64,000 bases of DNA from Verrucomicrobiales bacterium (GTDB lineage: Bacteria; Verrucomicrobiota; Verrucomicrobiia; Verrucomicrobiales; DEV007): positions 186,001 to 250,000 of the forward strand of contig PAAG01000049.1 in NCBI GenBank assembly GCA_002698785.1, written 5' to 3'. Positions 11,420 to 37,402 of this stretch are shown here, piece by piece. Every line of letters begins with the position of its first letter. Positions within the stretch are counted from its first letter, which is position 1. A program made the position numbers and the translations under genes. The notes beneath the pieces were generated by a model. The model worked only from the letters and a program-made list of their open reading frames with translations, did no database searches and was not told the origin of the DNA.

Positions 11420-11440
11420 GTCAGGCAAGATGCAGAAGCT

Positions 11441-12358: not shown

Positions 12359-12421
12359 GATAGTTTCGGCCATTGAACGACAGTTGAGACCGTGATACAA
12401 CATACGTTTGTTCCTCGCATC

Positions 12422-12922: not shown

Positions 12923-12947
12923 TCAAATACCCTTGAATTTTTGTGGA

Positions 12948-12984
12948 TTAATCTCTTAAAAAAGGTTAATCTTATAATTTCTAT
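12948..12984 (+). promoter_or_regulatory. Promoter of the FadL-like gene, with direct repeat
   Basis: A perfect TATAAT at 12973-12978 ends six bases before the ATG at 12985, so transcription should start at or next to the start codon. No good -35 hexamer is found 17 bases upstream. Instead the motif TTAATCT occurs twice, at 12948-12954 and 12966-12972, 18 bases apart and each preceded by GG. This layout suggests a promoter helped or blocked by a regulator binding the two repeats. Confidence 0.5.
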
Positions 12985-14217: not shown

Positions 14218-14238
14218 GTCTGCTTACCCCACGGAGCT

Positions 14239-15057: not shown

Positions 15058-15066
15058 CGAGAATCT

Positions 15067-15465: not shown

Positions 15466-15471
15466 CGGGGT

Positions 15472-15933: not shown

Positions 15934-16039
15934 TCAAAAATCCTGAAAAAACCTAGAGCCGAATATCCCCGCTGGCAATTCGGTCTGGTATGGATACGGT
16001 CCGGTCGTCGTTTTCCAACCCTGAACGATTTTTTACCCC

Positions 16040-20898: not shown

Positions 20899-22382
20899 AC
20901 ATCCTCCTGACTGGTGCCAATGGATATATCGGGCTTCGTCTGTTGCCTGTGCTCCTTGATGCCGGCCACCACGTCACCTGTTTGGTTCGCGATCGGCGGC
21001 GATTTCCCAGTCACGAGTTTCAGACAGGACTAGAATCCGGAGGAGTTCTCACAGTGATAGAAGGAGATCTATTGGATCGACCTTCTCTTGACTCTATCCC
21101 TGAGGAAACCGACGCCGCCTTCTACCTCGTCCACTCGATGGGAAGCGGAAAGAGCGATTTCTATTCCCTCGAGGAAAAGTGTGCGAAAAATTTCGTCGAT
21201 GCGTTATCGAAAACCAAGGCTCGACAGGTCATCTACCTCAGCGGGATCGTAAACCACCCCAAGGAGGCGCTGTCTCCCCATTTAGCCTCCCGCTTGAATG
21301 TGGAGGAAATCCTTCATGAAGGGGCAGTTCCTGCCACCGTCCTGAGGGCAGCCATCATTGTGGGAGCAGGAAGCGCGTCGTTTGAAATGATACGCGATCT
21401 CACGGAGAAACTTCCTGTCATGATCACACCTCGGTGGTTGCGCAATCTCTGCCAGCCGATCGCGGTGCGAAATGTCATCGATTACCTCACCCAGGTGATC
21501 GGCAATAAAGAGACCTTCGGGGAGACTTTCAATATCGCGGGCCCCAAAGCCCATACCTATGAAGAACTCCTTCGCATGTATGGAGATGTTCGTGGACTGA
21601 AGCGATTCTTTATCCGGGTGCCCTTTCTGACGCCTCGCCTATCGAGCTACTGGCTGTATTTTGTTACCAGCACGACTCCTTCGCTCGCAAAAAGCCTCGT
21701 TGATTCCCTGAGCTACGATATGTCTTCTCAGGAACAACGGATACGGGATATCATCCCTCTCGACCTGATCCCCTATCCCGATGCAGTGAAACGAGCATTC
21801 ACCATGATCGAGCAGAACCAGGTGAAATCGAGTTGGATCGATTCGATCTCGTCCGGCCGGATGGACTTCCATCAACTACGGAAAATCGAGGTACCTCACC
21901 ATGGTGTTCTGACTGACATTCGCGTCAAACCATTCGATCGTCCCCCTGACGAAGTTGCCGAAAACATATGGCGGATCGGCGGTAAGGAGGGCTGGTATTC
22001 GATGGACTGGGCGTGGCAACTTCGTGGATGGATGGATCGCTTTGTCGGTGGAACAGGACTTCGACGAGGCAGGCGTCATCCCAGCCAACTCAATCCCGGC
22101 GATGCACTCGATTTCTGGAGAGTTCTGGTTTCTGACCGGGAGAACCGACGTCTCGCACTCTATGCTGAAATGAAAATGCCTGGCGAGGCTTGGCTTGAGT
22201 TCCGAATCGAGCCGAACCGAAACGCTTCCGTTCCAGAGGCATGGCGCCTGGTGCAAACCGCCACCTTTCGGCCAAAAGGCTTGCTGGGGCGTCTTTACTG
22301 GCTGGCGGTTCTTCCCTTTCACCATTTTGTCTTCAACCAAATGTCGCACGAAATCGTGCATCGGAATGCGGATATGGCGTAG
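20895..22382 (+). CDS. NAD(P)-binding SDR-like protein with DUF2867 tail
   Basis: A 495-residue two-domain protein. The first 300 residues are an extended/atypical short-chain dehydrogenase fold: the nucleotide-binding GANGYIGLRLL at residues 7-17, the acidic EGDLLDRPSL, and VIYLSGIV. The second part, from about residue 330, fits DUF2867 (for example GWYSMDWAWQLRGWMDRFVGG). Such proteins are common in bacteria, but their reaction is unproven. Translation is coupled to the upstream flavoprotein by an ATGA overlap, and an MFS carrier follows 18 bases on, all pointing to one redox-linked operon. Confidence 0.78.
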   Translation: MNILLTGANGYIGLRLLPVLLDAGHHVTCLVRDRRRFPSHEFQTGLESGGVLTVIEGDLLDRPSLDSIPEETDAAFYLVHSMGSGKSDFYSLEEKCAKNFVDALSKTKARQVIYLSGIVNHPKEALSPHLASRLNVEEILHEGAVPATVLRAAIIVGAGSASFEMIRDLTEKLPVMITPRWLRNLCQPIAVRNVIDYLTQVIGNKETFGETFNIAGPKAHTYEELLRMYGDVRGLKRFFIRVPFLTPRLSSYWLYFVTSTTPSLAKSLVDSLSYDMSSQEQRIRDIIPLDLIPYPDAVKRAFTMIEQNQVKSSWIDSISSGRMDFHQLRKIEVPHHGVLTDIRVKPFDRPPDEVAENIWRIGGKEGWYSMDWAWQLRGWMDRFVGGTGLRRGRRHPSQLNPGDALDFWRVLVSDRENRRLALYAEMKMPGEAWLEFRIEPNRNASVPEAWRLVQTATFRPKGLLGRLYWLAVLPFHHFVFNQMSHEIVHRNADMA

Positions 22383-22400
22383 TATCTGGTGGAACCAATC

Positions 22401-23699
22401 ATGGAAGAGAAACTCTACGAGCTGGTCGCTGGTGACGATGACGCACGCATGTGCAAGGACATCCAGGAAGATGCCTGCGATGTTTTCCCACGGAATTTTG
22501 GTAAGCAGGTCATCTCGCAAGTGGCCAGCAAAGCGGGAGACCAACTCAGCAAACCGGGACTGATCCTGACATGGCTGCTCACCGCTGTAGGAGCACCAGC
22601 CGTAACGATTGGGCTGTTGGTTCCCGTGCGAGAAGCAGGATCACTCTTGCCCCAGATGATAGTCGGGGGTGTGATTCGTCGTTTTCCGATTCGGAAATAT
22701 TTCTGGGTTCTGGGTGCAGCGCTACAGGGACTGGCGATACTCGGAATTGGCTTTGCCGCATTAACGCTGAAGGGAGCAGTAGCCGGCTGGACAACTGTCG
22801 GCCTTCTCGTGCTTTTCAGCTTGTCTCGTGGCATTTCTTCTATCGCTTCCAAAGACCTTCTTGGAAAAACAGTTCCGAAAACTCGGCGTGGTAGACTCGG
22901 TGGATTGGCGTCGTCCATATCTGGTTGGATCGCTGTTGGAGTAGGAATTTTCTTCGCTCTGAATCCCGCACGCGAGCTCCCCGTTGGCCTGCTGGCGACT
23001 CTCCTCTTCGTTGCCGCCGGTCTCTGGTTCGTGGGAGCGTTCGTAATGTCGACACTGATCGAAAAGCCGGGAGCTACTTCAGGAGCAGCGAATGCGTTCA
23101 AGGAAGCGATCGCAAGTCTTCACTTCCTCCGAGACGATCCTGTTTTTCTCCGATTCTGTATCGCGCGCGCCCTTCTAGCCAGCACTGTGCTGTCGATGCC
23201 TTTCTATGTTGTCCTGGCGCACCGGGCGACGGACGGACGACTTGCGAGCCTCGGAATCCTGATGATCGCGGGCAGCCTTGCTACGGCATTGAGTGGAGTC
23301 ACCTGGGGAAAGCTATCGGATTCCAGTAGTCGGCTCACATTGGTTATCGCCGGAGTGGCTGCGGGAGGTGTCGGTATTCTGACTGCTTTGGTATCGCTCG
23401 CGAAGGTTGATTCGTCATACGCGATATGGATTTACGGGGTTCTCTTTTTCCTGATTGGCTTGGCACACACTGGTATCCGAACTGGCAGAAAGACCTACCT
23501 CGTCGATCATGCGAACGCCGATAACCGCGCTCAACTTGTCGCTGTGAGCAACACTCTGATGGGAATCGTGCTGCTGATCAGCGGGAGCTTCGGACTTCTT
23601 GCCGAGGCTATCGGTGTGCAGTGGGTCATTTTCGTATTCGGCTCACTCGGTATCATCGGTGGCCTGCTCGCCCTCAGCCTTCCGGAGGTTCAGGAGTAA
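22401..23699 (+). CDS. Major facilitator superfamily transporter
   Basis: A 432-residue inner-membrane protein with about eleven or twelve helices after an unusually long, acidic cytoplasmic N terminus (about 50 residues). The start is taken at the ATG at 22401 because GGTGGA sits seven bases upstream; a GTG at 22389 is the alternative. The loop KLSDSSSR is a weak form of the MFS loop motif. No substrate can be named. Its place inside the flavin/photolyase operon suggests movement of a metabolite made or used there. Confidence 0.8.
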
Positions 23700-23710
23700 T
23701 TCTTTCCCAC

Positions 23711-23872
23711 ATGAAGAAGCAGCACTTGCCCGAGAAGATCTGCCTCGTCTGTGGACGGCCTTTCAAGTGGCGCAAGAAATGGGAGAGTTGCTGGGATGAA
23801 GTGAAATACTGCTCTGAGAGATGTCGTCGGAATCGGAGCGCGAGACGTAACGACGGCACTGATGAATTCTGA
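23711..23872 (+). CDS. DUF2256 small zinc-ribbon-like protein
   Basis: A 53-residue basic protein. It shows the family pattern [25 protein letters not shown]...C: a CxxC, a second Cys after about ten residues, then CxxxC, likely binding one zinc ion. DUF2256 genes often lie beside photolyase/cryptochrome-like genes, and here the ORF overlaps the photolyase-like gene by 11 bases. Its function is unknown; nucleic-acid contact or a chaperone role for the flavoprotein are both possible. The start at 23711 follows the MFS stop by 11 bases. Confidence 0.8.
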
Positions 23873-25100
23873 GGCGCTGTCTTTTCCCACCACACGAGCC
23901 GAGGCACTGGAACGCCTCCGCGAGTTCATTCCCAAGGCAGAGCAATATGCAGCTCGCCGGAATTACGTGGAACCTCCTTACGACTACGTATCCCGCCTAT
24001 CGCCTGCCATCAGTAGGCGGCTGATTCTGGAGAGAGAAGTCTGCGAAGCTGCTCGCGAGGCCTTTTCCCCTTCGGCGATTCAGAAATTCGAACAGGAAGT
24101 CTGGTGGCGCACCTACTGGAAAGGCTGGCTCGAAATGAGACCGTCCATCTGGACGAACTACCGCACAGAGCTCGCCGAGTTGGACTGGGACGATTATCCG
24201 CGAGCACAGGAGGTCGCCCGTGGGGAGAGTGGCGTTGAGATCATGGATTACTTCGCACGTGAATTGTTCGAGACGGGCTACATGCACAACCACGCGAGGA
24301 TGTGGTGGGCCGCTTTCTGGATCCATGTGGAAAAGCTACCCTGGCAACTTGGTGCCGATTTCTTTCTCCAGCATCTGTTCGATGGGGATGCCGCCTCGAA
24401 TACTCTCTCCTGGCGCTGGGTGGCGGGACTGCACACAAAAGGGAAGAACTACCTCGTTCGGCGAAGCAATATTGAGAAGTACGTCGCGCCGGAAATTTTA
24501 AGAAATCACAAGGTAAAACTAGAGGCCCTCGAGCACACTACAGCCGTCGATATCGAGTATGAACCTTTGCCAGAGCCGAAGGCGGTGGAGGCGAGAGACT
24601 TGCCCTCCCTGGAAAACCAGCGAGTAGGCATCTGGCTTCATGAAAATGATCTACTCCCCGAGAAATCTCCGTTGCAGGACTTCGGGCCAGTTTCGGTTCG
24701 TGGTTTCACTCCTGAGAAGATCTGGAGTGCCGAACAGTTTTCAAAGTCGAAGCGGGATTTTCTGACTGCGGCGATGAAGGATGGCCTTCAGCGAGCGGAA
24801 GAATACTTCTCTTGTGCGTCAGGGTTTCAGACCTGCGACGTCTTAGAAGAAGGGCTCGCGAATTGGGTTCGAGAGGAAAACCTCGACACAGTAGTGACCC
24901 TCCACCCTTTCACGGGAGTTCTGGGTGAACGTCTTTCGAATATCGAGACAACCCTACGTGACGAGGGTGTCAATTTTTACGCTCGCCGACGCCCGGAAGA
25001 CGTAGAGCCTATGAACAAAGCTACCTCCGGTTTCTTCGGATTCTGGAAGAAAACAGAACCACTGAGACGGGAAAGCGCCGATTTGGCCTTTTCCGATTGA
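23862..25100 (+). CDS. Photolyase/cryptochrome-like FAD protein with swapped domain order
   Basis: A 412-residue protein. The FAD-binding domain of the photolyase family comes first (residues 1-210), with [12 protein letters not shown] at 45-55, WWRTYW, the FAD-contact segment [10 protein letters not shown] at 141-150 and [13 protein letters not shown] at 174-186. The usual N-terminal Rossmann-like antenna domain is missing from the front. Instead a segment from residue 253, [18 protein letters not shown], resembles its first strand and is followed by an alpha/beta pattern to the end. That would be a circular permutation. Whether it repairs DNA or senses light is open; repair Trp/Asn residues in NTLSWRW are largely kept. 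Confidence 0.78.
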
Positions 25101-26128: not shown

Positions 26129-26950
26129 ATGGTGACGTTCAGTCGATTAGCAGTGGTAGTTTGCGTTTTGGTCCTTTCGGTTTCGAGTGCAGTAGCACAG
26201 TTCCATTCGAAAAAAGAGAATGGCCAGACCGCAGTCAATTCACAGGCTATCAGCACTGCCCAAAAGCAGGCTGCTGCGCTAAGTGCCGTGCAGGGAAAGT
26301 CGCGACTGGGAAAGAACGCGAACTCCACCATTTACGTTTCGGAGGCGCATCAGAAGAATTACGGAGCCACGATCGGTCAGCAGAGGGACCTGATGATCGA
26401 AACGTGGGCTCGGTCGATTCATCACTCGGATGGTTCCTACACCGAATCGAAGCATGACTTCGAACAGAACTTCCTTGAGCAGATTACCAAGAGTAAGAAC
26501 GGAGTGGTGTTGCAGAAGCGCATGATCACGCTCGATGAACGGGGCTATCCCTACGAGGTGATGATTTATGACGGGCGGGACACTTTCAAATATCGTGGGG
26601 TTCTCGCCTACGACGGGTCGGGACGTTTCAAAGAAGAGCAGTTGTATGATCCGAAGGGAACTCTGATCCGCAGGAAAATTCAGGAATATACTCAGCAGGG
26701 ACAGCGCCTTCCATTGAAGAGCGTTGACTACGTTGCCAACGTTCCGGAAGATTTGAAGCTCGTGATCACTCGGGAAGAAGAGCAGACCGGGTCCAACCCC
26801 GAGGACAAGCCACAGAAGACTGGCCTTTTCTCCAAGAAGCCTGAACAGGCACAGGGTTCTGCCCAGCCTCAGCAGGCAGCTTCATCCGCCCCGAAAATGA
26901 AGGGCTTAAAGCTGGGCCGCATGTTTGGCGGCAAGAAAAAGGACAAATAA
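26129..26950 (+). CDS. Unrecognised secreted protein
   Basis: A 273-residue protein with a clear signal peptide (MVTFSRLAVVVCVLVLSVSSAVAQ). The middle (about residues 85-205) holds a repeating pattern of short strands rich in Tyr, Asp and Gly (YPYEVMIYDGRDTFKYRG, LAYDGSGRFKEEQLYDPKG), reminiscent of YD-like or MORN-like beta repeats. The tail after residue 215 is low in complexity, rich in Pro, Gln, Ser and Lys, and ends in a strongly basic GGKKKDK. I do not recognise a family. The basic tail may bind nucleic acid or cell wall. The next gene, 18 bases on, is likely co-transcribed. Confidence 0.7.
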   Translation: MVTFSRLAVVVCVLVLSVSSAVAQFHSKKENGQTAVNSQAISTAQKQAAALSAVQGKSRLGKNANSTIYVSEAHQKNYGATIGQQRDLMIETWARSIHHSDGSYTESKHDFEQNFLEQITKSKNGVVLQKRMITLDERGYPYEVMIYDGRDTFKYRGVLAYDGSGRFKEEQLYDPKGTLIRRKIQEYTQQGQRLPLKSVDYVANVPEDLKLVITREEEQTGSNPEDKPQKTGLFSKKPEQAQGSAQPQQAASSAPKMKGLKLGRMFGGKKKDK

Positions 26951-26968: not shown

Positions 26969-27370
26969 GTGAAAGCGTGGACCCCTGGGCAATCTCTTCT
27001 GGTTCTTCTCTTACTCGGCGTCGGAATCTCCGGGTGGATGTATGGGTTCCACTGGAAGACCATGGCCTCGAAACCAGCAAGAAAGCCGATGTCCGCGAGC
27101 TTACGACCGGTTCCGGCAGCCCTCTCGGCCACTGCTGATCCTCCTGAAGTCGAGCTTCCCAGCGATCCCCCCACGCCGACTTATCCGGTAGTCGATACTG
27201 TGTTCAGTGATGAGTTTTCTCCTATGGAAAAACAGATGATCCAGTTGCAAGACCAGGTGGAGATTCTGACCAACGAGAACATCGATCTGCGAGAGAAGTT
27301 ACACAAACTTCAACCGGTTCAGGAAGTTAAGGAAACTTCTGATGTAAGTCCGGAACCGAAAGCGAATTAG
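26969..27370 (+). CDS. Unrecognised membrane-anchored coiled-coil protein
   Basis: A 133-residue protein starting with GTG. A single N-terminal membrane helix (about residues 9-25) is followed by a Pro/Ala/Ser-rich stretch and then a coiled coil (about residues 85-113, MEKQMIQLQDQVEILTNENIDLREKL in shortened form: heptads from MEKQ to REKL). No family is recognised. The topology resembles small periplasmic scaffold proteins. It lies 18 bases after the secreted protein gene and overlaps the convergent LolA-like gene by four bases. Confidence 0.65.
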   Translation: MKAWTPGQSLLVLLLLGVGISGWMYGFHWKTMASKPARKPMSASLRPVPAALSATADPPEVELPSDPPTPTYPVVDTVFSDEFSPMEKQMIQLQDQVEILTNENIDLREKLHKLQPVQEVKETSDVSPEPKAN

Positions 27371-28053
27371 AATTTCGTCTCTTTGTACCCGGTCAGATCG
27401 GGTGAAAAAAGTCCAGCTGGAAGGGCTACGTTTGCCTGCACCTGATTGAACACCGTCTCTACGGAAGAGCCATCTTTCAGTTGAATTTCGATACCGAGAA
27501 GTCGGTGGCGATCCCTTTCCACGACGTAGGTGAAGGTTTCCACCCCTCGGCCTGAGGCTCCCAGGGGTCGGGCCAGAATCCGGTAGGTATTCTGATGGGG
27601 ACGGACCTCCAGAATGTGATATTTCCTCTGAAAATCCTCAAGTGTCCGGGGAAAGCCGTGAGCCAAGGATGCCATGCCGGGGGCTGCTGATTCGCCCGAG
27701 GCCTTTTTCTCGAACTTCTTTCCCGGAGTCCTAATGATCAAAACACCATTTCCCCCTCCCACAACGATCGTCTGCGCGGGATCGCCAGTCTGCCAGCGGA
27801 AACGACGGGGATTTTTCGAGAAGTCGAGCCAGAGGATTCCGTCCTGACGAATGGGCACCTTCAGCGACTTCATGTGCCGTGTCTGTGTGAAATCAATTTT
27901 CACCGAACCAACGCCCGTATTTGTCCCGAGCCAGCGCTTGATCACCTCGATGCCCACTTCAGGAGCCACGGGAGGTTCCTGGGCGTGACCGGAGACAGAA
28001 AGAGAGAACGAAATTGCAAGAATTCCGGCAAAAATCTTGGGAGCGAGGGCCAT
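27367..28053 (-). CDS. LolA-like periplasmic lipid carrier
   Basis: A 228-residue exported protein with a signal peptide ending at SGHAQ. The mature part follows the LolA/LolB half-barrel pattern: IDFTQTRHMKSLKVPIRQDGILWLDFSKNPRRFRW is the classical beginning (signal of FTQTR and a Trp-rich strand), then VVGGGNGVLI, and a C-terminal strand run IEIQLKDGSSVETVFN. LolA carries lipids across the periplasm. It is the last gene of the carotenoid operon, 48 bases after the MMPL transporter, a pairing also known from aryl-polyene gene clusters, so the likely cargo is the acylated carotenoid rather than lipoproteins. Confidence 0.82.
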   Translation of the reverse strand: MALAPKIFAGILAISFSLSVSGHAQEPPVAPEVGIEVIKRWLGTNTGVGSVKIDFTQTRHMKSLKVPIRQDGILWLDFSKNPRRFRWQTGDPAQTIVVGGGNGVLIIRTPGKKFEKKASGESAAPGMASLAHGFPRTLEDFQRKYHILEVRPHQNTYRILARPLGASGRGVETFTYVVERDRHRLLGIEIQLKDGSSVETVFNQVQANVALPAGLFSPDLTGYKETKF

Positions 28054-28101
28054 AAAGCGGGAAAGTATGACCGAAATCTTTTTTGCGCAACCCGTCGGAG
28101 T

Positions 28102-30507
28102 TTATCCAACCTGTTCCATTCGGTATATCGCGCGATACCAACGTGGCAGAAGCCAGACCGCAACCACCATGTTCACCAGAATGCCGATGGCACAGACGAT
28201 GCCTAAACTTGCGAGACCGTAGGCAGAAGCGGTTGCCAGAGATCCGAACCCTATGGCGGAGGAGGTTCCACAAAACACCAAGGCTTTCCCGATTCCATGT
28301 CGTGCTGCCGCGACGTCTCCCTTTTCGCGTCGCAGAGCGAAAATCATGTGAATGCTGAAATCCAGCCCGGTACCGAAAAGCAGCGGCAGACCGCATACAT
28401 TAAATGAGTTCCAGCTCAGCGGGGTCCATACGGTCAGGAGGACAATCACCGCTGCGGAGAAAACAAGGCAGAACATACTGAGAACCAGATCCCTCCAGGA
28501 TCGGTAGACGACGGCAAGCATCACGGTAAGCAGTCCCATCATTGGCACAAAGACACGCAGTAAGTCCGCCCCGATTCGTTCGTTGAGAGCGGTTCCCAGC
28601 GATCCGAGGCTCGCGACCACGGTGTCAGGGGTGCATATTTCGTTCACCCAATCTCGATCTCTCGGGTCAGTCGGTTTGACGGTCGCGAGGGCAGCAAAGT
28701 TTCCGTCTTTCTCGGAGAAAAGCCGATTGATCGACCATTCGGCAAGTTGTCCCGAGGGTTTTGCGTATACACCGGAGTCGAGTTGCTGAAGATAATCTGC
28801 CCATGCCTCGAAGACTGATTTGGTAAGCTCCTGACCGTCTTCCGAAAAACCGACTTCATCGATCTCGCGAATCAGCCGTTCTTTCTCAGCCATCGCTTTT
28901 CTGACAGCTTCGAGATTTGCCTGCTGGTGGTCAGGATTAGGAATCAACCCGGCTGGCAGGATGTATCCCTGCAATACGCCTTCCTCGCGGGCCGCTTCAA
29001 TTCTGCCTGAGGCCTTTTTGAGGTTCTGCTGCAACTCCTCGAGACTCTTTCCTGTCACGATGGTGGGCACGGCATTTTCCCTTCCGAGCAGTTCGTGCTG
29101 CAGTTGTTGCCATGCTTTCATCGATGGGCTTTCCCGAATCCGAAAGGGATGGAAGTTTGCTTCCAATCCGGGCATCTCTCGAAGGAACATAGAGAGAATC
29201 GCCACCACTGGGACGAGAATGGCGAGCCAGCCGGAGAACTTTCTCGTTACACCGCCACCGGTGAGCTGGATTCCCTTTTGAGCCACCGCATTCCGATTGA
29301 ACTGCACTGCTACCGGGCTGAAGAAAAAAAGCATCACTAAAGCTCCTACGGCAACACCTATCGCGACGAGGTTACCCATCTCGGAAAGCCCCGGCAGCGA
29401 ACTCAGGTTGAGTGAAAGGAATACCACAGCTGTGGTCGCTGCGGCCCAGATGATGCCGGGGCCCACCGACTTACGAAGGCCTTTGGCATCGTGCCCTGTA
29501 TCCATGGCTTCGCGATACAGGACGATCCCGTAGTCCACTGCCAACCCCATCAGGATGGCAGCGAACCCCACGCTCATCACACTGAGGTCGCCGAACAATA
29601 GACCACCGAGGTTTACTGTGATGATGAGGATGATCATCATCGACGCGACCAGCCACGAAAGCGGCTTAGTCTTTCGGTGCATGATCCAGAAAAGCAGAGA
29701 AATCAGCAACATCGTCGCGATGACCGAAATGGTCATGTCCCGCTCCATTTCCGATCCGACCTCCGCCATAAAGGCGGGTGTTCCGGTGAGCCCGACGGTT
29801 ATTTCGGTTCCCGGCGGTTGAGTTTCCAACCAATCCTTTTCCCAATCCGCTACGATGACTTTCACCTGATCCAGCCAAACCTTGGCCGCGCGATAATCTG
29901 AGAAATCGACTCCGCTTCCTTCCACATACACAATCTGGAACGTTCCGTCTTCTGAAGCCATTGGATCGGGATTTGCCGTCTCCCCGTCCTCGCCCGAAAC
30001 ACCAAAGCTACTTCCCAATTTGGAAAACCCGAGGGGATCGTAACTGGAGACCACCACGTTTTGGTCAAAGAATCCACTCTGGATAGCTTCCATCGAACCG
30101 GCGATCGCTTCACCCGACGATCCAGACTTCAATCGATCCAGCAGAACTTCGAGTTCATCTGGTGGTGAATTCAACCACAGCCATGAGAGGAGACTACCGC
30201 CCTCGGTGACCAGCTCCGTCAGTGATAGTTCTCGAAAGACTTGGGAGACCAATTCGTTCTCCTCGCGCAGGCGAGTGGTCAGACTTTCGAGGGCATCGTC
30301 AGCCAGATAGGCATCGCTCGCTTTGACCGTCACGATCAACTGACCGTCGCGGCTGAAATACCGATTCAGTCTATCCATCCCCTGAACCTCCGGAAGGTCG
30401 GCTGGGAGCATTTCGTAGAGGCTCGCCGAGAACTTTACCCGCATCAGACTGAAGGCGGCGATCGCCCCGATGACGGTCAGGAGAATAATCGGCGGAATAC
30501 GAATCAT
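28102..30507 (-). CDS. MMPL/RND-family lipid exporter
   Basis: An 801-residue inner-membrane transporter with the RND layout: one N-terminal helix, a large periplasmic loop (about residues 30-250), five clustered helices, then a second repeat of one helix, a large loop and five helices. The SSD-like segment VGFAAILMGLAVDYGIVLYREAM and the later FGTGLDFSIHMIFALRRE carry the paired Asp residues expected for proton coupling. MMPL proteins, such as the hopanoid exporter HpnN and mycobacterial MmpL, move lipids outward. Its place between crtO and the LolA-like gene makes the carotenoid glycolipid its likely substrate (inference). Confidence 0.85.
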   Translation of the reverse strand: MIRIPPIILLTVIGAIAAFSLMRVKFSASLYEMLPADLPEVQGMDRLNRYFSRDGQLIVTVKASDAYLADDALESLTTRLREENELVSQVFRELSLTELVTEGGSLLSWLWLNSPPDELEVLLDRLKSGSSGEAIAGSMEAIQSGFFDQNVVVSSYDPLGFSKLGSSFGVSGEDGETANPDPMASEDGTFQIVYVEGSGVDFSDYRAAKVWLDQVKVIVADWEKDWLETQPPGTEITVGLTGTPAFMAEVGSEMERDMTISVIATMLLISLLFWIMHRKTKPLSWLVASMMIILIITVNLGGLLFGDLSVMSVGFAAILMGLAVDYGIVLYREAMDTGHDAKGLRKSVGPGIIWAAATTAVVFLSLNLSSLPGLSEMGNLVAIGVAVGALVMLFFFSPVAVQFNRNAVAQKGIQLTGGGVTRKFSGWLAILVPVVAILSMFLREMPGLEANFHPFRIRESPSMKAWQQLQHELLGRENAVPTIVTGKSLEELQQNLKKASGRIEAAREEGVLQGYILPAGLIPNPDHQQANLEAVRKAMAEKERLIREIDEVGFSEDGQELTKSVFEAWADYLQQLDSGVYAKPSGQLAEWSINRLFSEKDGNFAALATVKPTDPRDRDWVNEICTPDTVVASLGSLGTALNERIGADLLRVFVPMMGLLTVMLAVVYRSWRDLVLSMFCLVFSAAVIVLLTVWTPLSWNSFNVCGLPLLFGTGLDFSIHMIFALRREKGDVAAARHGIGKALVFCGTSSAIGFGSLATASAYGLASLGIVCAIGILVNMVVAVWLLPRWYRAIYRMEQVG

Positions 30508-30560
30508 GGAGGGGGCGTCCGACAGTAGCCCAACCCTCCTATTTTCGCCATTCGATCCTG

Positions 30561-31049
30561 TCAGGATCGCTTCTCAACTTGTGCCAGAAGATGATTCAAT
30601 CGACAACGGGTGAAGCGCTGGATCAGGATGCAGGGGAGATTGGACAGCACCGCGTATACCATCATCACAACGGCAGCTACCGGCCAGGGATTCCAAATGA
30701 CTGTGATCAGGAGAGCCACGGCTTGAGCATAATGAGCAGCCTCACCGCGGCAGGTTTCTTTTCGGAAGGCCTTGAGATAGGCAGGATCTTTCTCGTTCAG
30801 GTTCCGTTTCGCAAATCCATCGAACCACGGCGCTGCATCCGGCAACAGCCCCTTCCACTGACGAATTCGGAATAGGGTCTGGTAGATCGCTCCTCCGTTT
30901 TCCCATGCTCTTTCTCGAAACAGGAACGTACCAGGACGAAAGAGATCCCTGCTCATTCGGGTGAACCACCAAGAGATCCCCAGGTGTATGGAAGGCACCG
31001 CGAGGACGTTCAGAACGACGATCCAGACCTTGGGCAGCTCAATCCACAT
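30561..31049 (-). CDS. crtO: Glycosyl-carotenoid acyltransferase, CrtO family
   Basis: A 162-residue membrane enzyme matching staphylococcal CrtO, which adds a fatty acyl chain to the sugar of glycosyl-diaponeurosporenoate as the last step of staphyloxanthin synthesis. Length is close to the 165 or so residues of that enzyme. The conserved core is RKETCRGEAAHY, with hydrophobic helices at both ends. The ATG at 31049 is chosen, since GGAAAGG lies about seven bases upstream; a start at 31079 is possible. It overlaps the end of crtQ by 11 bases. This is not the unrelated beta-carotene ketolase that is also called CrtO. Confidence 0.82.
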   Translation of the reverse strand: MWIELPKVWIVVLNVLAVPSIHLGISWWFTRMSRDLFRPGTFLFRERAWENGGAIYQTLFRIRQWKGLLPDAAPWFDGFAKRNLNEKDPAYLKAFRKETCRGEAAHYAQAVALLITVIWNPWPVAAVVMMVYAVLSNLPCILIQRFTRCRLNHLLAQVEKRS

Positions 31050-32148
31050 TGCGCCCTTTCCATTGAATCGTTTCTCCACGCTTCCGCCGTTTCGCCGACA
31101 CGAAGAACAACCACTGATAGAAAAACAGTCCTATTGGGAAAAGGACGGCACCGATTCCCCAAAACGTTCCCACGACCCGAAACAGATACCAGGACTGCAC
31201 CACTGATAGGAAATACATTCCGTAGACACACCATGTGACCGCATCTGAAGCTTGAGGCAGAAATGTCAGGGCGATGACTGACATGATCAATCCGGAGAGC
31301 CAGAGAGATACTCCCACCAATGCCTCCCTGGGAACCTGCCCTGCCCCTTTGACGAATCCTTTTCCCCAGCTGGCCACCAGCTCTCGAAAGCCACCGGGAA
31401 ACATACGCATCGAGATGGTTCCCTTCCCCACATACGAACGGCAGGTGATGCCCTTCTCGGAAAAGTGGCGGGACAATGCGAAATTCTCCAGCACTTCGCC
31501 CTTCACCAATTCATGCCCCTTCACGAGAGCATAGTGGTCTCTGGACAAAAAAAGTGACTGACCGAAAAGACGAACTTCTTTTTCCTCGTCCGCTTTTGCC
31601 GTGAATGCGTTGGTGCCTAACAGCATGATCACATTGAAGAACGAGGAGAGCTGCTCGTATGGCCGGCGGACTCGATGATAGGGACAGAATGAGAATACGG
31701 AGCCCTTCTCGCGAGCCAGATGCCCGATGCGAAGCAATGCCTCCGGCTCCAACCACGTATCGGCATCCAAAAACAGAAACCAGTCCCCTTCGGCAACCAT
31801 TGCTCCCTGTGCGCATGCCCACGGCTTTCCAAGCCAACCGTCCGGGAGAGACTTTCCATTGATCACTTTCGCACCGTGTTCTTCTGCCACAGCGACCGTT
31901 TTGTCCTCCGACTGGTCGTTTACGACGATGACTTCGTGGGGAGAAAATTCCTGCGCGATCACACTCCCTAACAAAGCCTTAAGGTTCAATTCCTCATTCC
32001 TCGCCGGAATGATGATGGAGATCTTTACGTTCGGTTTTGGTGCTCCCGGCTCAAGGCGAGGCACCTTTCTGAGTCGCGCGCACAGATACCACCCGGCCAG
32101 CCAGAACAAGAAGGTTACCGAAAGGAAGATCCAGAAGAACAACTCCAT
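31039..32148 (-). CDS. crtQ: Carotenoid glycosyltransferase, CrtQ family (GT2)
   Basis: A 369-residue membrane-bound family 2 glycosyltransferase. The N-terminal helix is followed by the GT2 start SIIIPARNEELNL, VVNDQSEDKT, the CrtQ-typical PDGWLGKPWAC at 102-112, and the metal-binding DAD at 128-130; three or four C-terminal helices anchor it (about residues 285-355). CrtQ glucosylates the carboxyl group of 4,4-prime-diaponeurosporenoate. The sugar here could differ, for example a pentose. The gene sits 23 bases after crtP and overlaps crtO. Confidence 0.85.
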   Translation of the reverse strand: MELFFWIFLSVTFLFWLAGWYLCARLRKVPRLEPGAPKPNVKISIIIPARNEELNLKALLGSVIAQEFSPHEVIVVNDQSEDKTVAVAEEHGAKVINGKSLPDGWLGKPWACAQGAMVAEGDWFLFLDADTWLEPEALLRIGHLAREKGSVFSFCPYHRVRRPYEQLSSFFNVIMLLGTNAFTAKADEEKEVRLFGQSLFLSRDHYALVKGHELVKGEVLENFALSRHFSEKGITCRSYVGKGTISMRMFPGGFRELVASWGKGFVKGAGQVPREALVGVSLWLSGLIMSVIALTFLPQASDAVTWCVYGMYFLSVVQSWYLFRVVGTFWGIGAVLFPIGLFFYQWLFFVSAKRRKRGETIQWKGRNVD

Positions 32149-32171
32149 TGAAACTTCCTGCCTTTAAACTC

Positions 32172-33692
32172 TCACGAGCTTTTCCCTTCCTGCTTCACCA
32201 CTCTGTCGGCCACCTTCTGCCCGCAGAGAATTGCCATCGGCATACCGCCCCCAGGATTCACACTGCCACCGGTGAAGAAAAGGTTCTTGTACTTCGAAGA
32301 CTGTTTCGGTGCCTTGAAGGCCTGGTTGAGATCCCAGTCCGAAACAACGCCATAAACCGAGCCACCATTGGAGTTGTACATTCTCTCGATATCCACCGGA
32401 GTCAGAGTGTCCTCAACTACGGTGTGCTTTCGCAAATCGGTGAGACCCATTCGCTCCAGCTTATCGATTACCCGTTCTTTCAGCGCCATGTATTCCTCGT
32501 GAGTATGCGGATTCTCCGGATCAATGGGCGGAATATGAGGAAGGATCTTGATGTTGTCGTGACCCTCTGGTGCTTTGGTAGGATCTGTCCTCGTTGGGGC
32601 AACCAGATAGATGGTCGGATCTTCCGGTAATTTGCCTTGCTGGAAGACTGAGTCGAAGTGTTTGCTCTGATTCTTCGAGTAGAAGAAATTGTGGTGCGCC
32701 AACTGATCGTAGATACGATCGGTTCCCAAGTGAATCACCAGTCCCGAGCAGGCGGGCTTGTATTTTTTCAGCTTGTCGAGAAAGGCCTCCGGCTCATCGA
32801 GGAGTTTCCGGTAGGCGGGAATGACCTCCATGTTGCAAACGACGTAGTCGGAAGTGAGCTTTTCTCCATTGTCCAGAGTCACCCCTGAAACGCCTTTTCC
32901 AGAACGATCGATGGAAACCACTTCGTGGCCGAACTGCACGGGGATTTCGAGATCGTCGAGCAGTTTGCCCAACCCTCTGGCGAGGTTGTACATGCCCCCT
33001 TCCACATACCAGAGACCGTAGTCGAACTGGATGATGGGCATCAAATTCATGTAGCCCGGCGCATCGTGCGCTGAAGAGCCCACATACTTGATGAAATACT
33101 CGAAGATCATCCGGAGATAGGGATCATCGATGCGTGAGGCGATGGACTCGGACATGCTCTGCCGATGATCCATTTTGAAGGCCATCCGAAAGAACCCGTA
33201 GTGGCGGATCATTTCCCAGACGGTATCGAGCCCTTTCGCGAAGTAACCTTCGTCGATCAGATGATACTGTTCGCGCCCATAGGAAAGGAATTCCTGGAAC
33301 TGCTTCCAGTGGGTCTCCAGATCTCCGGGAAGCTTATCCAGCTCCGCCTTCATCTCGGCAGGATCCTCGTAGAGATCGAGAACCATCCCGTCTTCGAAGA
33401 AATTTCTCCAGTGAGGCGAGACCGGAACGAGCCCGACGTAGTCCTCCATTCGCTTTCCCGCTCGCTCCCACAAACTCTGGAAGAACTGAGGAAGCGTGAA
33501 AATCGAAGGCCCGAGGTCGAAACCGAAGCCGTCGATTTCGAGGAAGTTCAGCTTTCCGCCGATCTTCTCGTTCTTTTCGACGATGGTTACGTCGAAGCCT
33601 TCTGCCTTCAGCGATACCGCTGCTGATAATCCTCCTAATCCGGCCCCTACTACTGTTACAGACTTATTCCGGGGTTCCGGCTGGCTACTCAT
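32172..33692 (-). CDS. crtP: C30 carotenoid terminal oxidase, CrtP (CrtNb) family
   Basis: A 506-residue FAD enzyme of the CrtI superfamily that oxidises terminal methyl groups of C30 carotenes to aldehydes. The FAD site is VVGAGLGGLSAAVSL with EKNEKIGGKLN. Several stretches agree closely with staphylococcal CrtP rather than CrtN: FGFDLGPSIFTLP, IKYVGSSAHDAP, LWYVEGG, LAHHNFF, and the C-terminal FFTGGSVNPGGGMPM. It overlaps crtN by four bases (ATGA on the minus strand), so both are translated together. Confidence 0.88.
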   Translation of the reverse strand: MSSQPEPRNKSVTVVGAGLGGLSAAVSLKAEGFDVTIVEKNEKIGGKLNFLEIDGFGFDLGPSIFTLPQFFQSLWERAGKRMEDYVGLVPVSPHWRNFFEDGMVLDLYEDPAEMKAELDKLPGDLETHWKQFQEFLSYGREQYHLIDEGYFAKGLDTVWEMIRHYGFFRMAFKMDHRQSMSESIASRIDDPYLRMIFEYFIKYVGSSAHDAPGYMNLMPIIQFDYGLWYVEGGMYNLARGLGKLLDDLEIPVQFGHEVVSIDRSGKGVSGVTLDNGEKLTSDYVVCNMEVIPAYRKLLDEPEAFLDKLKKYKPACSGLVIHLGTDRIYDQLAHHNFFYSKNQSKHFDSVFQQGKLPEDPTIYLVAPTRTDPTKAPEGHDNIKILPHIPPIDPENPHTHEEYMALKERVIDKLERMGLTDLRKHTVVEDTLTPVDIERMYNSNGGSVYGVVSDWDLNQAFKAPKQSSKYKNLFFTGGSVNPGGGMPMAILCGQKVADRVVKQEGKSS

Positions 33693-35251
33693 ACGGCGAC
33701 TTTTTGTTTCAAATAGGATAGTCCAAACGAATCGGAGATCAGATTGGAGGAGATGCGGGCAGACTCAAAAATGGTCGGCAATCCGCTTCCCGGGTGTGTG
33801 CCCCCGCCTACGAGATAACAATTTCGAAATTCATCAAATTGATTTCCCGGTCTCATAAACGCCATCTGGCTGAGGCAATGAGACAGGTTAAAGGTGGCAC
33901 CTTTGAAAATGTCCAGTTCTGCGTTCCAGGTCTTCGGAGTGTAGATCTTCTCGACCTCGATGTGCTCTTCGAGATCGGTGATTCCAAGACGGTCTGCGAT
34001 GGCTGAGAATGCCATTGAGCGGTAAGCATCTTTCGCCTCATCCCAATCGATGTCGCCATCCAGATTCGGAGTCGGAACAAGGATGTAGAGGCTGGATTTT
34101 CCTTCGGGAGCTAAGGTTGGGTCTGTCACGCTCGCATTTCGAATGTAGAACGAAATGTCGTCCGATCTGCGATGGTGCTTGAAGATCTCATCCACGTTCT
34201 TCCTGTAGTCTCGTGCGAAGACTATGGTGTGGTGAGGCAGATCGTAGAGCTTGTCGACGCCCAGGTGGATCATGAATGTCGAACAGCTGTACTTCATCGA
34301 CTCAAGCTTCTGGCGCGTCCATCTCTTGAGCGATTCCTCAGGAACGAGGTGAGTCATGGCGTGAGCGAAGTCTGCATTGATGACGACGCTGTCGGCGTAG
34401 ACTTCTTCTCCGTCTTCCAGCACTACACCGCAGACTTTCCGGTCCTTGAGGAGCAATTGCTTCACACCCGTGCCAGTATGGATCTGTGCGCCACATTCCT
34501 CGGCGGCACGTCCCATGGCGATCGGAATCTCACAAAGGCCTCCCTTGGTATGGAAAATGCCGTGCTCGTGCTCCATGTAGGAAAGCATCGCGAAGGCACC
34601 GGGACACTCCCACGCTGACATTCCCAGGTACTTGCTCTGGAACGAGAAGAGCAACGCGAGTTTGTCGTCGGAAAAGTATTTCTTCAGATTATCGAAAACG
34701 GTCGTGCCGAGCGACAGGTGCGGCAGAGCGGGCAGCAGATCTGGAGAAAGGGCATTCCTTGCTTTCGAAAAATCGTGCTGAAAGGCGGGCAGCAATCGAC
34801 TGAGTCTTGAGCGCTCCCGCTTTAGAAATTTGTCCATCCCGGCGGACTGTCCGGGGAAGAGACGCTCAATCTCCGCCTTTGTATCCTCTACGTTATTTCC
34901 CGCGCGAAAGACTTCGTCGTCGAAGCGAATTTCGTACATCGGGTCGAGGCGAACGAAGTCGAGATAATCCTCTGATCTCAATCCCGACTCTTCGAAGATC
35001 CGGTCGAGGAGACTCTTCATCATCAGGAACGTGGGCCCGATGTCGAATTTGTATCCGTCTATCTCATGAGCGCCCGTTCGGCCCCCAAGACGATTCTGTT
35101 TTTCAAACAGTTGCACATTGATGCCGCGGCTCGCGAGCAAAAGTGCGCTGGCTACTCCCCCAGGACCGCCACCAACGACGATCACTTTCTTTCCCGATCC
35201 GGTAGGTCCGAGGTCTTTCATGATTTCACTCACTTTATCTTCCGCCGACAT
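33689..35251 (-). CDS. crtN: 4,4-prime-diapophytoene desaturase, CrtN family
   Basis: A 520-residue FAD-dependent desaturase. The FAD fingerprint is VVGGGPGGVASALLL followed by EKQNRLGGRTG; FDIGPTFLMM, ALLFSFQSKYLGMS and the C-terminal GGGTHPGSGLPTIFESA match C30 desaturases. It lines up with staphylococcal CrtN along its length (for example YSCSTFMIHLGVDKL, LAPEGKSSLYILVPTP). It would introduce the conjugated double bonds in diapophytoene or in a squalene-derived precursor. It is the first gene of the six-gene minus-strand operon; a downstream Met at codon 11 is an alternative start. Confidence 0.87.
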   Translation of the reverse strand: MSAEDKVSEIMKDLGPTGSGKKVIVVGGGPGGVASALLLASRGINVQLFEKQNRLGGRTGAHEIDGYKFDIGPTFLMMKSLLDRIFEESGLRSEDYLDFVRLDPMYEIRFDDEVFRAGNNVEDTKAEIERLFPGQSAGMDKFLKRERSRLSRLLPAFQHDFSKARNALSPDLLPALPHLSLGTTVFDNLKKYFSDDKLALLFSFQSKYLGMSAWECPGAFAMLSYMEHEHGIFHTKGGLCEIPIAMGRAAEECGAQIHTGTGVKQLLLKDRKVCGVVLEDGEEVYADSVVINADFAHAMTHLVPEESLKRWTRQKLESMKYSCSTFMIHLGVDKLYDLPHHTIVFARDYRKNVDEIFKHHRRSDDISFYIRNASVTDPTLAPEGKSSLYILVPTPNLDGDIDWDEAKDAYRSMAFSAIADRLGITDLEEHIEVEKIYTPKTWNAELDIFKGATFNLSHCLSQMAFMRPGNQFDEFRNCYLVGGGTHPGSGLPTIFESARISSNLISDSFGLSYLKQKVAV

Positions 35252-35419
35252 TTCTCAGCAGGGAACAGGGCCCACTCACCAGCAAGAACGGGTAAATATT
35301 CATCGTTTGTACACCCTGATTCGTCGACTATTTTTTTTGTATACTGAATTCCAGACAGTTGCTTACACCAGTTTTACGTTTCATAACGGCAGAAGAGTCG
35401 TAACACTCTCAACAACCTA
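35252..35419. promoter_or_regulatory. Divergent promoter region between crtN and the aldehyde dehydrogenase gene
   Basis: These 168 bases separate the two halves of the carotenoid locus and must hold both promoters. A TATACT at 35340-35345, after a run of eight T, is a fair -10 candidate for the plus strand, about 75 bases before the dehydrogenase start; the matching -35 is weak. No clear palindrome was found, so no operator is proposed. Confidence 0.35.
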
Positions 35420-36811
35420 ATGAGCAGCAGCACCAGCGATACAGCCCCAGAATACGGCCTTCCTTCTTTGCTGGATGCGCAGCGGCAATATTTTTCTTCC
35501 GGCGTAACTTTACCCATCGAATTTCGTCTCGATGCCTTGGAAAGACTGGCTTCCGGGCTGGAGGATCGTCGTGACGAGCTACTCGACGCCCTTGCTTCAG
35601 ATCTCGGAAAGCCAAAAATCGAAGCGTATCTGGCTGAGGTATATTTCCTGATTTCAGAAATCCGCAGGTTTCTCAAGAAGTTGAAGCGCTGGACTCGCCC
35701 GCAATCCGTGGGCAATCCTTTCTATTTCTGGCCCGCGAAAAGTGAAATTTGGCTCGAACCGCTGGGGACTTCTCTCGTCGTATCGCCCTGGAACTATCCA
35801 GCTCAGCTGGCTCTTGGACCCGCAGTTGCTTCTATTGCCGCCGGAAACACCGTAGTCCTGAAACCATCCGAACTCGCGCCCGCAACATCATCTTTTCTCA
35901 AAGAACTGATCGGCTCAGTCTTTCCGGAAGAGCATTTCAGTGTGGTGACGGGAGGAGTCGAGCTGGGAAAAGAGCTACTCGAACAGTCTTTCGACACGTG
36001 GTTTTACACTGGTAGCGAGAAAGTGGGGAGGATGTATGCCGAGGCAGCAGCACGCGATCTGTCACCCATCACACTAGAGCTGGGAGGTAAGTGCCCGTGC
36101 ATACTTGCAGATGACGCCGACCTGAAGATTTCCGCCGAAAGGATCGCAGCGACGAAGTTTTACAATGCGGGTCAAACTTGTATCGCTCCCGACTTTGCTC
36201 TAGTTCCTGCCGGTAAGCTGGATGAGTTCGTTTCTATACTTCGGGAAACACTTGAGCGTTTTTATCCCGAATTCCCCAGTCCGGACCTGGCCCGAGTGGT
36301 GAATGATTCCCACTTTGAGCGACTTTCGAATCTTCTAAGTCCTGACGCCATCCGTATCGGGCAGGACGTCCGAGAGGATCGCTATTTCGCGCCGACTTTG
36401 TTGCCGAACTCCACTTGGGAATCCCCCGCCATGCAGGACGAAATTTTCGGACCGATTCTTCCTATAGTGGCATATGAGGATCTCGATGAAGCCCTGAAGA
36501 AAGTGGCGGCCCGCCCTTCCCCACTGGCCCTGTATGCCTTTTCGAACGAGAAAAGCACCTTAGAAAAGATCGCTCGCGCCGTTCCATCGGGATCCGTTTG
36601 TTTCAACGACGCCATCAAACAGGCGACAAACCTGAAACTGCCGTTCGGGGGAATCGGTGCCAGCGGAATGGGAAGGTATCGCGGACGTTTCGGGCTGGAA
36701 ACGTTCTCAAATAAAAGGGCCTACACCCGGCGATGGATCTGCAAAGATCTCTTTGCCGTGCACCCTCCGTATGGAGATCAGTACGAGAAGATGAAAAAAC
36801 TGCTAAAGTAG
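35420..36811 (+). CDS. Aldehyde dehydrogenase, probably for C30 carotenoid aldehydes
   Basis: A 463-residue NAD(P)-dependent aldehyde dehydrogenase of the short, membrane-associated class 3 type that includes the staphylococcal AldH/CrtNc. It has SPWNYPAQL near the coenzyme site, the FYTGSEKVG loop, the general base in LELGGK, and the catalytic Cys254 in GQTCIAP. The C-terminal quarter ends with a hydrophobic/basic segment as in class 3 enzymes. Divergent placement beside crtN suggests it turns diaponeurosporenal-type aldehydes, made by CrtP, into the carboxylic acid that CrtQ glycosylates. A general fatty-aldehyde role is the alternative. Confidence 0.83.
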   Translation: MSSSTSDTAPEYGLPSLLDAQRQYFSSGVTLPIEFRLDALERLASGLEDRRDELLDALASDLGKPKIEAYLAEVYFLISEIRRFLKKLKRWTRPQSVGNPFYFWPAKSEIWLEPLGTSLVVSPWNYPAQLALGPAVASIAAGNTVVLKPSELAPATSSFLKELIGSVFPEEHFSVVTGGVELGKELLEQSFDTWFYTGSEKVGRMYAEAAARDLSPITLELGGKCPCILADDADLKISAERIAATKFYNAGQTCIAPDFALVPAGKLDEFVSILRETLERFYPEFPSPDLARVVNDSHFERLSNLLSPDAIRIGQDVREDRYFAPTLLPNSTWESPAMQDEIFGPILPIVAYEDLDEALKKVAARPSPLALYAFSNEKSTLEKIARAVPSGSVCFNDAIKQATNLKLPFGGIGASGMGRYRGRFGLETFSNKRAYTRRWICKDLFAVHPPYGDQYEKMKKLLK

Positions 36812-36814
36812 CCG

Positions 36815-37402
36815 TTACCCCCGACTGCGCTCCAGGAGAATCATCATCAAGGTGGAAAGCATAATCCGAAGCTGGTCTCCATCATCAATGTTGCCCAGTT
36901 GCTCGAGGTGAAACTTTCCTTCCCAGAAAGCGGGCTGCTTCTTAATACGGACGATTTCCTCTCCGGTATCGATTCGAGTGACGAGATATGATGGATTAAA
37001 GAGGTATCCGGCGAACGCTCCTACCAGCGGAATCTCCGAGAAGAAGCTGTCCATGACCTTTACCCAGCCATTTTCCTCCTGAATTTCGTATTCGGGCGTC
37101 TCGTGGTCGAGGATTTCATAGTGGGCTTTCCAGATGGAACGCATGCCCTTTCGGCGCACGGCACCAAATGCCTCACCTGTGTTGGAGTAGAAGGTGTACT
37201 TCGCCGAAAAGTCGATCACCCGGTCTGCTTTGATTTCACACAATTTCTCGGTCCGCGTATCGTCGGTGAAGATTTCGACTGCCTCTTTGAATTTGAAGAG
37301 CTTCTGTTTCACATAACAGACGGGACTACCCGTGCTGTCGGACACCTTCATCTGAGGGGCGAGGGCGACAATTTTGAAGGAAAGTTCGAGCGGATAATTC
37401 AT
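36815..37402 (-). CDS. LURP-one/scramblase-like protein
   Basis: A 195-residue protein matching the LURP-one-related/Tubby-like fold: repeated strand pairs such as LSFKIVALAPQMKVSDSTGSPVCYVKQKLFKFKEAVEIF, and WKAHYEILDHETPEYEIQEENGWVKVMDS. (Stretches are named by their ends LSFK-VEIF and WKAH-VMDS.) The fold binds membranes or phosphoinositides in eukaryotes; no bacterial role is settled. It ends four bases from the convergent aldehyde dehydrogenase gene and has its own upstream region shared with the sigma factor gene. Confidence 0.75.
   Translation of the reverse strand: MNYPLELSFKIVALAPQMKVSDSTGSPVCYVKQKLFKFKEAVEIFTDDTRTEKLCEIKADRVIDFSAKYTFYSNTGEAFGAVRRKGMRSIWKAHYEILDHETPEYEIQEENGWVKVMDSFFSEIPLVGAFAGYLFNPSYLVTRIDTGEEIVRIKKQPAFWEGKFHLEQLGNIDDGDQLRIMLSTLMMILLERSRG

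Follow-up and report, generated by a model that had tools for sequence, protein, structure and literature searches.

Described C30 carotenoid systems and the cassette of a Verrucomicrobiales bacterium

C30 glycosyl esters and the genes for them are already known from Gram-negative bacteria (Methylobacterium), as are C30 dioic acids from Methylomonas and acyl-xylosyl esters from Rubritalea. Here we analyse a related set of genes in a Verrucomicrobiales bacterium (assembly GCA_002698785.1, 7.0 Mb in 60 contigs), located in the window, that is, the whole stretch of 64,000 nucleotides at positions 186,001 to 250,000 of contig PAAG01000049.1. M. extorquens AM1 has a Gram-negative C30 pathway leading to acyl-glucosyl diapolycopenedioic acid, with squalene made by HpnCDE; deletion and complementation experiments established its glycosyltransferase (GT) and acyltransferase kit, and the authors of that study found no CrtO homologue (PMC10448405). 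The chemistry and the genes of the Methylomonas C30 pathway are likewise described (PMC10745290). Rubritalea squalenifaciens makes diapolycopenedioic acid 2-acyl-xylosyl esters, and such esters have been known from this verrucomicrobial genus since 2007-2008 (PMC3967232). A survey of 2010 named the Verrucomicrobia as carotenogenic, with no sequenced genome then (PMC2889829), and the excerpt of the Oceaniferula paper mentions two terpene clusters and names no genes (PMC9865893). No described C30 ester gene cluster for the phylum was found among the literature matches listed, as judged by title and start of abstract; subscription papers fell mostly outside this scope, so a prior description is possible.

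Our reading, to which we give a probability of roughly 0.78, is that a six-gene unit on the minus strand, transcribed in the order crtN-crtP-crtQ-crtO-MMPL-lolA, together with an aldH gene divergent from crtN, produces an acylated glycosyl ester of a C30 carotenoic acid and probably exports it. The product would be a yellow-red pigment resembling in structure the golden one of Staphylococcus. The features are the following:

33689-35251, minus strand: crtN, predicted C30 (squalene/dehydrosqualene) desaturase of the Methylomonas type (TIGR02734, 463 bits; tree clade of 31 rows)
32172-33692, minus strand: crtP, predicted C30 carotenoid terminal (4,4') oxidase (TIGR02734, 356 bits; 46-48% identity to staphylococcal CrtP; tree)
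31039-32148, minus strand: crtQ, predicted family 2 glycosyltransferase (GT2) of the staphylococcal CrtQ type (PF00535, 84 bits; alignment; tree)
30561-31049, minus strand: crtO, predicted glycosyl-carotenoate acyltransferase (PF18927, 98 bits; invariant residues)
28102-30507, minus strand: MMPL/RND transporter, putative exporter of the finished pigment (PF03176, 92.6 bits)
27367-28053, minus strand: LolA-like periplasmic carrier, putative partner of the MMPL protein (PF03548, 48 bits)
35252-35419, no strand: divergent intergenic region between crtN and aldH, presumed to hold the promoters (geometry only)
35420-36811, plus strand: aldH, aldehyde dehydrogenase, probably oxidising 4,4'-diapocarotenal (PF00171, 271 bits; divergent position conserved in the order)

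The profile cut-offs were 238 bits for TIGR02734, 27.3 for PF18927 and 23.6 for PF03548. The five genes that the initial annotation had named (crtN, crtP, crtQ, crtO and an aldehyde dehydrogenase) were all present where it had placed them, with family matches; the MMPL and LolA genes of the same interval had been overlooked. All reading frames of the cassette are open. The mechanical open reading frame of crtO (30561-31079) begins at a GTG at 31079, and the likely start is the ATG at 31049 (162 aa), since the relatives align from there. With this start crtQ and crtO overlap by 11 bp, crtN and crtP overlap by 4 bp, and gaps of 53 bp and 48 bp separate crtO from the MMPL gene and the MMPL gene from lolA. 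The divergent crtN and aldH lie 168 bp apart, and no consensus promoter was found in this gap. A light-type operator (TGTAYA pair) was also considered there and dropped: one pair was seen, with a spacing of 24 and in the window only, and 69 such gaps held three half-sites.

In the proposed pathway, the C30 backbone would be squalene or dehydrosqualene made by an HpnD-like and/or an SQS-like synthase encoded elsewhere. CrtN would desaturate this backbone, CrtP would oxidise one or both terminal methyl carbons to aldehydes and AldH would convert these to acids, after which CrtQ would join a sugar as an ester and CrtO would acylate the ester-bound sugar. The MMPL and LolA proteins may then take the amphipathic pigment out of the inner membrane and deliver it to the outer one, the role suggested for ApeM and ApeL of aryl polyene clusters. 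Given the homology, clade membership, gene order and conserved residues presented below, we regard the biosynthetic half of this reading, in which a predicted C30 carotenoic (probably dioic) acid ends up as an acyl-glycosyl ester, as well supported. The likeliest aglycone would be 4,4'-diapolycopene-dioic acid, because the close relatives of CrtN and CrtP include the Methylomonas enzymes and Methylomonas makes the dioic acid. The enzyme set thus fits the acylated glycosyl carotenoic acid about which there had been said to be "little doubt", but that wording was too strong, as the sugar, the acyl chain and the choice between mono- and diacid are not readable from sequence.

Compared with crtOPQMN of staphylococci (S. 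xylosus plasmid pDMSX03-1), the cassette shares CrtP (46-48% identity), CrtQ (33%, along the whole length) and CrtO (26%, with ten invariant residues), but it has no CrtM, its CrtN belongs to another clade, its order is N-P-Q-O, and a divergent aldH as well as the MMPL and LolA genes accompany it. The Methylomonas crtN-ald-crtNb cluster for a C30 dioic acid (PMC10745290) resembles it in including an aldehyde dehydrogenase and no CrtM. In the Methylomonas loci L044, L045 and L049, CrtN is 52-53% and CrtP/CrtNb 54-56% identical to the proteins of the window, whereas AldH is just 29-33% identical and no CrtQ or CrtO match was found within the flanks covered (up to 10 kb per side). The AM1 pathway, compared from the publication and not from the AM1 proteins, is also Gram-negative and leads to the same type of end product, with a lysophospholipid-type acyltransferase in place of CrtO (PMC10448405). 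Azospirillum and Gluconobacter plasmids carry gene sets similar to that of AM1, and their GTs lie across a tree split from the window's CrtQ; in Azospirillum, as here, AldH is divergent beside the first crtI gene.

The Gram-negative setting, which the initial annotation had stressed, is therefore no novelty, a C30 acyl-glycosyl pathway being known in AM1 (PMC10448405), though without CrtO. What appears to be new is the combination of a Methylomonas-type CrtN with staphylococcal-type CrtP, CrtQ and CrtO and a putative export pair. Rubritalea squalenifaciens belongs to the same phylum and its product fits the predicted enzyme set, a comparison of chemistry with genes in which the sugar specificity of CrtQ is not predictable. 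The wide distribution of the cassette in the order makes it plausible that the cassette forms the genetic basis of the Rubritalea-type pigment, and it provides specific candidate genes for the diapolycopenedioic acid xylosyl ester chemistry.

CrtN and CrtP belong to different clades of the CrtI family

The staphylococcal match of CrtP sits between crtO and crtQ in S. xylosus, and in a plasmid comparison CrtP was 47-48% identical to the protein of food-borne staphylococci. To place both desaturase-like proteins we used a CrtI-family tree of 67 rows, built by a quick method with Shimodaira-Hasegawa-like approximate likelihood ratio test (SH-aLRT) support only; two of its long rows are of unsure placement, and one of the six C40-type CrtI rows was assigned from its 47% identity to Pantoea CrtI. 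CrtP grouped with the CrtP of S. xylosus and the CrtNb of Methylomonas (SH-aLRT 100), in agreement with the close match along the whole chain reported earlier. CrtN fell in a clade of 31 rows (support 100) with proteins of Methylomonas, Bacillota, Acidobacteriota, Planctomycetota and Azospirillum, separate from the six C40-type CrtI (support 100) and from staphylococcal and enterococcal CrtN (99). We read the CrtN clade as a C30 clade because of the Methylomonas chemistry and genes (PMC10745290). Relatives of CrtN at 73-84% identity came from contigs labelled Verrucomicrobia, Verrucomicrobiia, Verrucomicrobiales or Akkermansiaceae (23 of the 80 contigs kept), and the next best match was at 57%; these named relatives point to the order Verrucomicrobiales for the genome.

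These placements support a cassette of C30 type, with a desaturase outside the C40 CrtI clade and a terminal oxidase of the CrtP type, as had been predicted: CrtN did not group with the C40 desaturases. Of the staphyloxanthin-like desaturases that had been proposed, CrtP is indeed of staphylococcal type, but CrtN is of Methylomonas type, in a separate clade and only 30% identical to S. xylosus CrtN. On these alignments and trees, the cassette is a mosaic and not a transplanted crtOPQMN.

CrtQ and CrtO define a predicted tailoring kit

The CrtQ protein aligned with S. xylosus CrtQ over 375 positions (33% identity, 189 bits) and less well with the GT of the Azospirillum C30 cluster (26%, 91 bits), whose gene adjoins that of a lysophospholipid-type acyltransferase, as in M. 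extorquens AM1. In a GT tree of 39 rows, one side of a split supported at 99 held the verrucomicrobial, Bdellovibrionales and staphylococcal proteins together with one Cytobacillus and one Picosynechococcus GT, and the other side the GTs from the Azospirillum, Gluconobacter, Halobacillus, Alkalihalobacterium and Ectobacillus clusters as well as three that are more distant. CrtQ keeps the family-invariant residues. CrtO, 26% identical to staphylococcal CrtO, carries ten residues (W75, K76, P80, D81, K91, E108, R111, H116, N147 and P149, in the numbering of the 172-aa form) that were invariant in all 72 rows of an alignment including two staphylococcal proteins, one of them deemed CrtO by position, and one Bdellovibrionales protein. 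The membership of both proteins in the CrtQ and CrtO families, on which the earlier assignment depended, is thus borne out by the side of the split on which CrtQ falls and by the PF18927 score (98 bits) and invariant residues of CrtO. The model of the CrtO fold (mean predicted local distance difference test score 85.7) gave no Foldseek match at E 0.001 or better among 92 listed, and a second look (VIA) gave helical bundles with a top Z of 7.4, which may reflect merely a common arrangement; the fold points to no mechanism.

Two tailoring kits can be seen in these alignments and trees, one of CrtQ with CrtO and one of a GT with a PlsC-like acyltransferase, and the distribution of the first indicates that CrtQ and CrtO, as assigned here, also occur outside the Gram-positives. 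Carotenoid genes in what may be a third arrangement lie on a Cytobacillus spongiae plasmid (L137, 5172-8014), where the gene of a CrtQ-like GT, 38% identical to that of the window, is divergent from a crtI-family gene and no CrtO is annotated in the stretch.

The cassette has a stable core and an exchangeable crtN

Of 386 genomes sampled across the order, 103, spread over 15 of 50 genera, had a PF18927 (CrtO) match, and none of 14 control genomes did; two of the 103 (G083 and G098) show no crt neighbours. In the 100 other genomes crtQ lay beside crtO in every case, and where the flank was sufficient crtP was upstream in 83 of 89 loci and a divergent aldH was present in 74 of 83, in support of the earlier claim that AldH belongs to the locus. 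Because this order recurs in 100 other genomes, the arrangement is not a matter of chance. The type of CrtN, where one was found at these loci, was that of the window in 18 of 18 cases in the window's genus and genus g8, and another type in 41 of 41 cases in other genera; G018, a genome of the window's genus without CrtO, carries the other type. Since the order of aldH, crtP, crtQ and crtO is largely conserved while the presence and type of CrtN vary, the cassette is best described, from its gene order, as a stable aldH/crtP-crtQ-crtO core with an exchangeable crtN. It would thus exemplify C30 clusters assembled from exchangeable parts.

A metagenome-assembled genome from a different phylum (Bdellovibrionales; L036, 1853-8380) has the whole set of crtQ, crtO, crtN, crtP and aldH, 40-59% identical and in a different order. 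Pairs of crtQ and crtO without adjoining crtP or aldH occur in L197 (G028:C64) and L235 (G004:C51), and also in L192, L196, L206 and L214. In G028 and G004 the crtN and crtP genes lie on different contigs from crtQ-crtO, so the cassette is split in some species.

A putative MMPL-LolA export pair

Among solved structures, the MMPL protein matched HpnN/RND chains only, and it was not over the HpnN cut-offs (173 bits against 752, and 114 against 1100). The LolA-like protein, the only LolA found in this genome, matched LolA2_flexi weakly (22.7 bits against a cut-off of 125). In E. coli, the aryl polyene genes encode, among others, a LolA-like protein and an RND protein, which are suggested to bring the pigment to the outer membrane (PMC8253772). 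Likened by protein kind, apeL (LolA-like) and apeM (RND) of E. coli CFT073 form a like pair beside pigment synthesis genes, but no polyketide-type genes stand beside the pair of the window. We put export of the pigment to the outer membrane by MMPL-LolA at about even odds. The wider proposal, that the cassette acquired an aryl-polyene-type RND/LolA pair for dedicated outer-membrane delivery of the C30 ester, and that such a pair is a pigment-export module exchangeable between chemically unrelated polyenes, is tentative and falls a little short of an even chance. The cassette also offers a way to test how bulky carotenoid glycolipids get to the Gram-negative outer membrane, if they do so at all.

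The best-surviving alternative, which we hold to be a serious possibility although we would not bet on it, is that MMPL and LolA are bystanders, a general lipid/lipoprotein export pair placed downstream by chance, the enzymes acting as described and the pigment staying in the inner membrane. An MMPL-LolA pair on the same strand within 4.5 kb downstream of crtO was seen in 11 of 86 other loci besides the window, so most crt loci (75 of 86) have none at that distance; in several relatives of the genus the pair lies away from crt, and lipoproteins could be the cargo of the only LolA found in this genome. Several patterns are harder to reconcile with a chance neighbourhood. In the window's genus 19 of the 20 genomes with a close MMPL also have LolA, and 12 of the 13 lacking such an MMPL have no LolA, indicating that the two are gained or lost jointly and, from the 12 genomes, that LolA is not essential there. 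A close MMPL (55% identity or more) was found in 22 of 74 genomes of the family, one of them by a partial match, and all 22 have crt genes; of the genomes with CrtN, 21 of 43 had it, compared with 1 of 31 lacking CrtN (p=1.7e-5, with no correction for relatedness). Of the 11 linked loci, seven are in genus g47 (family f2), where they represent every CrtO-bearing genome sampled, and four are in the window's genus. In six of the seven g47 genomes, which belong to another family, a same-strand run of crtP-crtQ-crtO-MMPL-LolA-crtN was found, with crtN after lolA. In the CrtP tree, g47 groups with the window's genus and not with its own family (SH-aLRT 90; 95 with genus g8), as if the cassette had moved between families.

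The context of MMPL in genomes without crt genes also speaks against bystanders. Four such genomes of sister genera (L260, L261, L263 and L264, judged by eye) carry a more distant MMPL homologue within a similar, pigment-cluster-like gene set. In L261, seven proteins were family-tested, and the set includes an FkbO/Hyg5-type chorismatase, a Trp-halogenase-like FAD protein, two lipid acyltransferases, a GT2 with a methyltransferase domain and a FabA/FabZ-like protein; in L264, LolA was confirmed by family test. We read these sets, from their gene content, as probable aryl-polyene- or xanthomonadin-like clusters. No such set was seen by eye around MMPL in L265 (crt-less) or L268 (crt-bearing), and in the crt-bearing L262 a LolA-like gene is divergent from MMPL, without aryl-polyene-like genes. 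No MMPL was found in viral contigs.

Source of the C30 backbone and remaining alternatives

Several observations weigh against the reading of a pigment-making and pigment-exporting cassette, and the first group concerns the backbone. No PF00494 gene (CrtM/HpnC/HpnD/SQS family) was found in the window, which places the backbone synthase outside the cluster. CrtM was rejected for this genome, both of its PF00494 genes being HpnD-like or SQS-like. HpnE gave five weak matches here, the best at 48.5 bits against a cut-off of 283 (all 48 candidates scored), and was over the cut-off in none of 74 family genomes, where six weak matches were seen, none in this genus (at most 20 candidates scored per genome). 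Regarding gene order, crtQ-crtO stood without crtP upstream in 6 of the 89 loci with enough flank, and CrtN was seen in 46 of 60 loci having 6 kb on both sides. Regarding export, the MMPL-linked groups, g47 and the window's genus, are not independent, since the CrtP tree joins them; within the genus the association of MMPL with crtN was not significant (19 of 29 against 1 of 4, p=0.28); and both MMPL and LolA are missing from six crtO-bearing genomes of the genus that are at least 90% complete (G002, G006, G007, G013, G019 and G030), so transport is not needed for the cassette.

The two PF00494 genes of this genome lie on other contigs. One is HpnD-like (245 bits against a cut-off of 278.6); the SQS-like protein has DTLAD as its first motif and is 27% identical to a Methylomonas LW13 protein. 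HpnCDE was rejected as the backbone route, as HpnE was not over its cut-off. At least one PF00494 gene was found in 72 of 74 family genomes, with or without crt genes. In L257, crtP-crtQ-crtO is followed by a gene judged by eye to be lepB and then by an hpnD-like gene, and three genomes of another genus have hpnD at a distance of about 4 kb from crtO; these neighbourhoods favour the HpnD-like protein as the candidate supplier of the backbone. The locus is therefore not quite the nearly complete one described initially: genes for desaturation, oxidation and tailoring are there, but the first step is missing, with HpnD-like and SQS-like genes elsewhere.

The HpnD-like gene of this genome stands (L124, G000:C2:707000-725000, at 9931-16166) with lepB and lepA, assigned by eye, a MerR-family regulator and a divergent extracytoplasmic function (ECF) sigma factor, the last two assigned by Pfam. 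In the relatives L110-L113 a second CrtN-like gene lies beside a sigma gene. Light or stress control of the squalene/carotenoid supply is possible.

A C40 locus, with the CrtI-like proteins acting on phytoene or lycopene and a C40 xanthophyll as the substrate of the GT and the acyltransferase, is very unlikely. The similarity of CrtN to C40 CrtI (28-31%) is about that to S. xylosus CrtN (30%), and NCBIfam places both CrtI-like proteins in a phytoene desaturase family. However, the tree sets CrtN apart from the six C40-type CrtI with support of 100 for both clades, its Methylomonas relatives belong to a C30 acid pathway (PMC10745290), CrtP, CrtQ and CrtO are C30 tailoring families, and just two CrtI proteins were over the cut-off in the whole genome.

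Another genome of the genus (L127, G029:C110, from 3216, minus strand) carries a C40-type CrtI gene (47% identity to Pantoea CrtI) adjoining an SQS_PSY gene, and a similar pair occurs in G020; some species of the genus may make both C30 and C40 carotenoids.

Least probable of all is that the acquired cassette is an inactive or partial relic making no pigment for want of the first step, as the absence of a backbone synthase from the cluster might suggest, since all frames are open, CrtO and CrtQ keep their family-invariant residues, the same layout is kept over several families, a CrtM search of related loci matched just five loci, all of Bacillota (L037, L074, L080, L084 and L087), and the Azospirillum and Gluconobacter clusters likewise show no annotated CrtM.

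Neighbouring genes

Downstream of aldH, a 195-aa protein (36815-37402) gave a weak LURP-one-related match (15 bits, below the cut-off) and occurs close to aldH in several relatives, where it is 72-83% identical. On the other side of the cassette, a 273-aa protein without family match (26129-26950) is conserved in relatives, where its gene adjoins trxB and has lolA or crtO nearby. Genes for FAD amine-oxidase-like, NmrA/DUF2867, MFS and photolyase/cryptochrome-like FAD-binding proteins (19846-25100) adjoin trxB, and genes judged by eye to encode photolyases also lie near crt in two other genera. Finally, a restriction-modification pair occupies 17623-19568, with an adenine methyltransferase (MethyltransfD12) followed by a DpnII-type restriction endonuclease.

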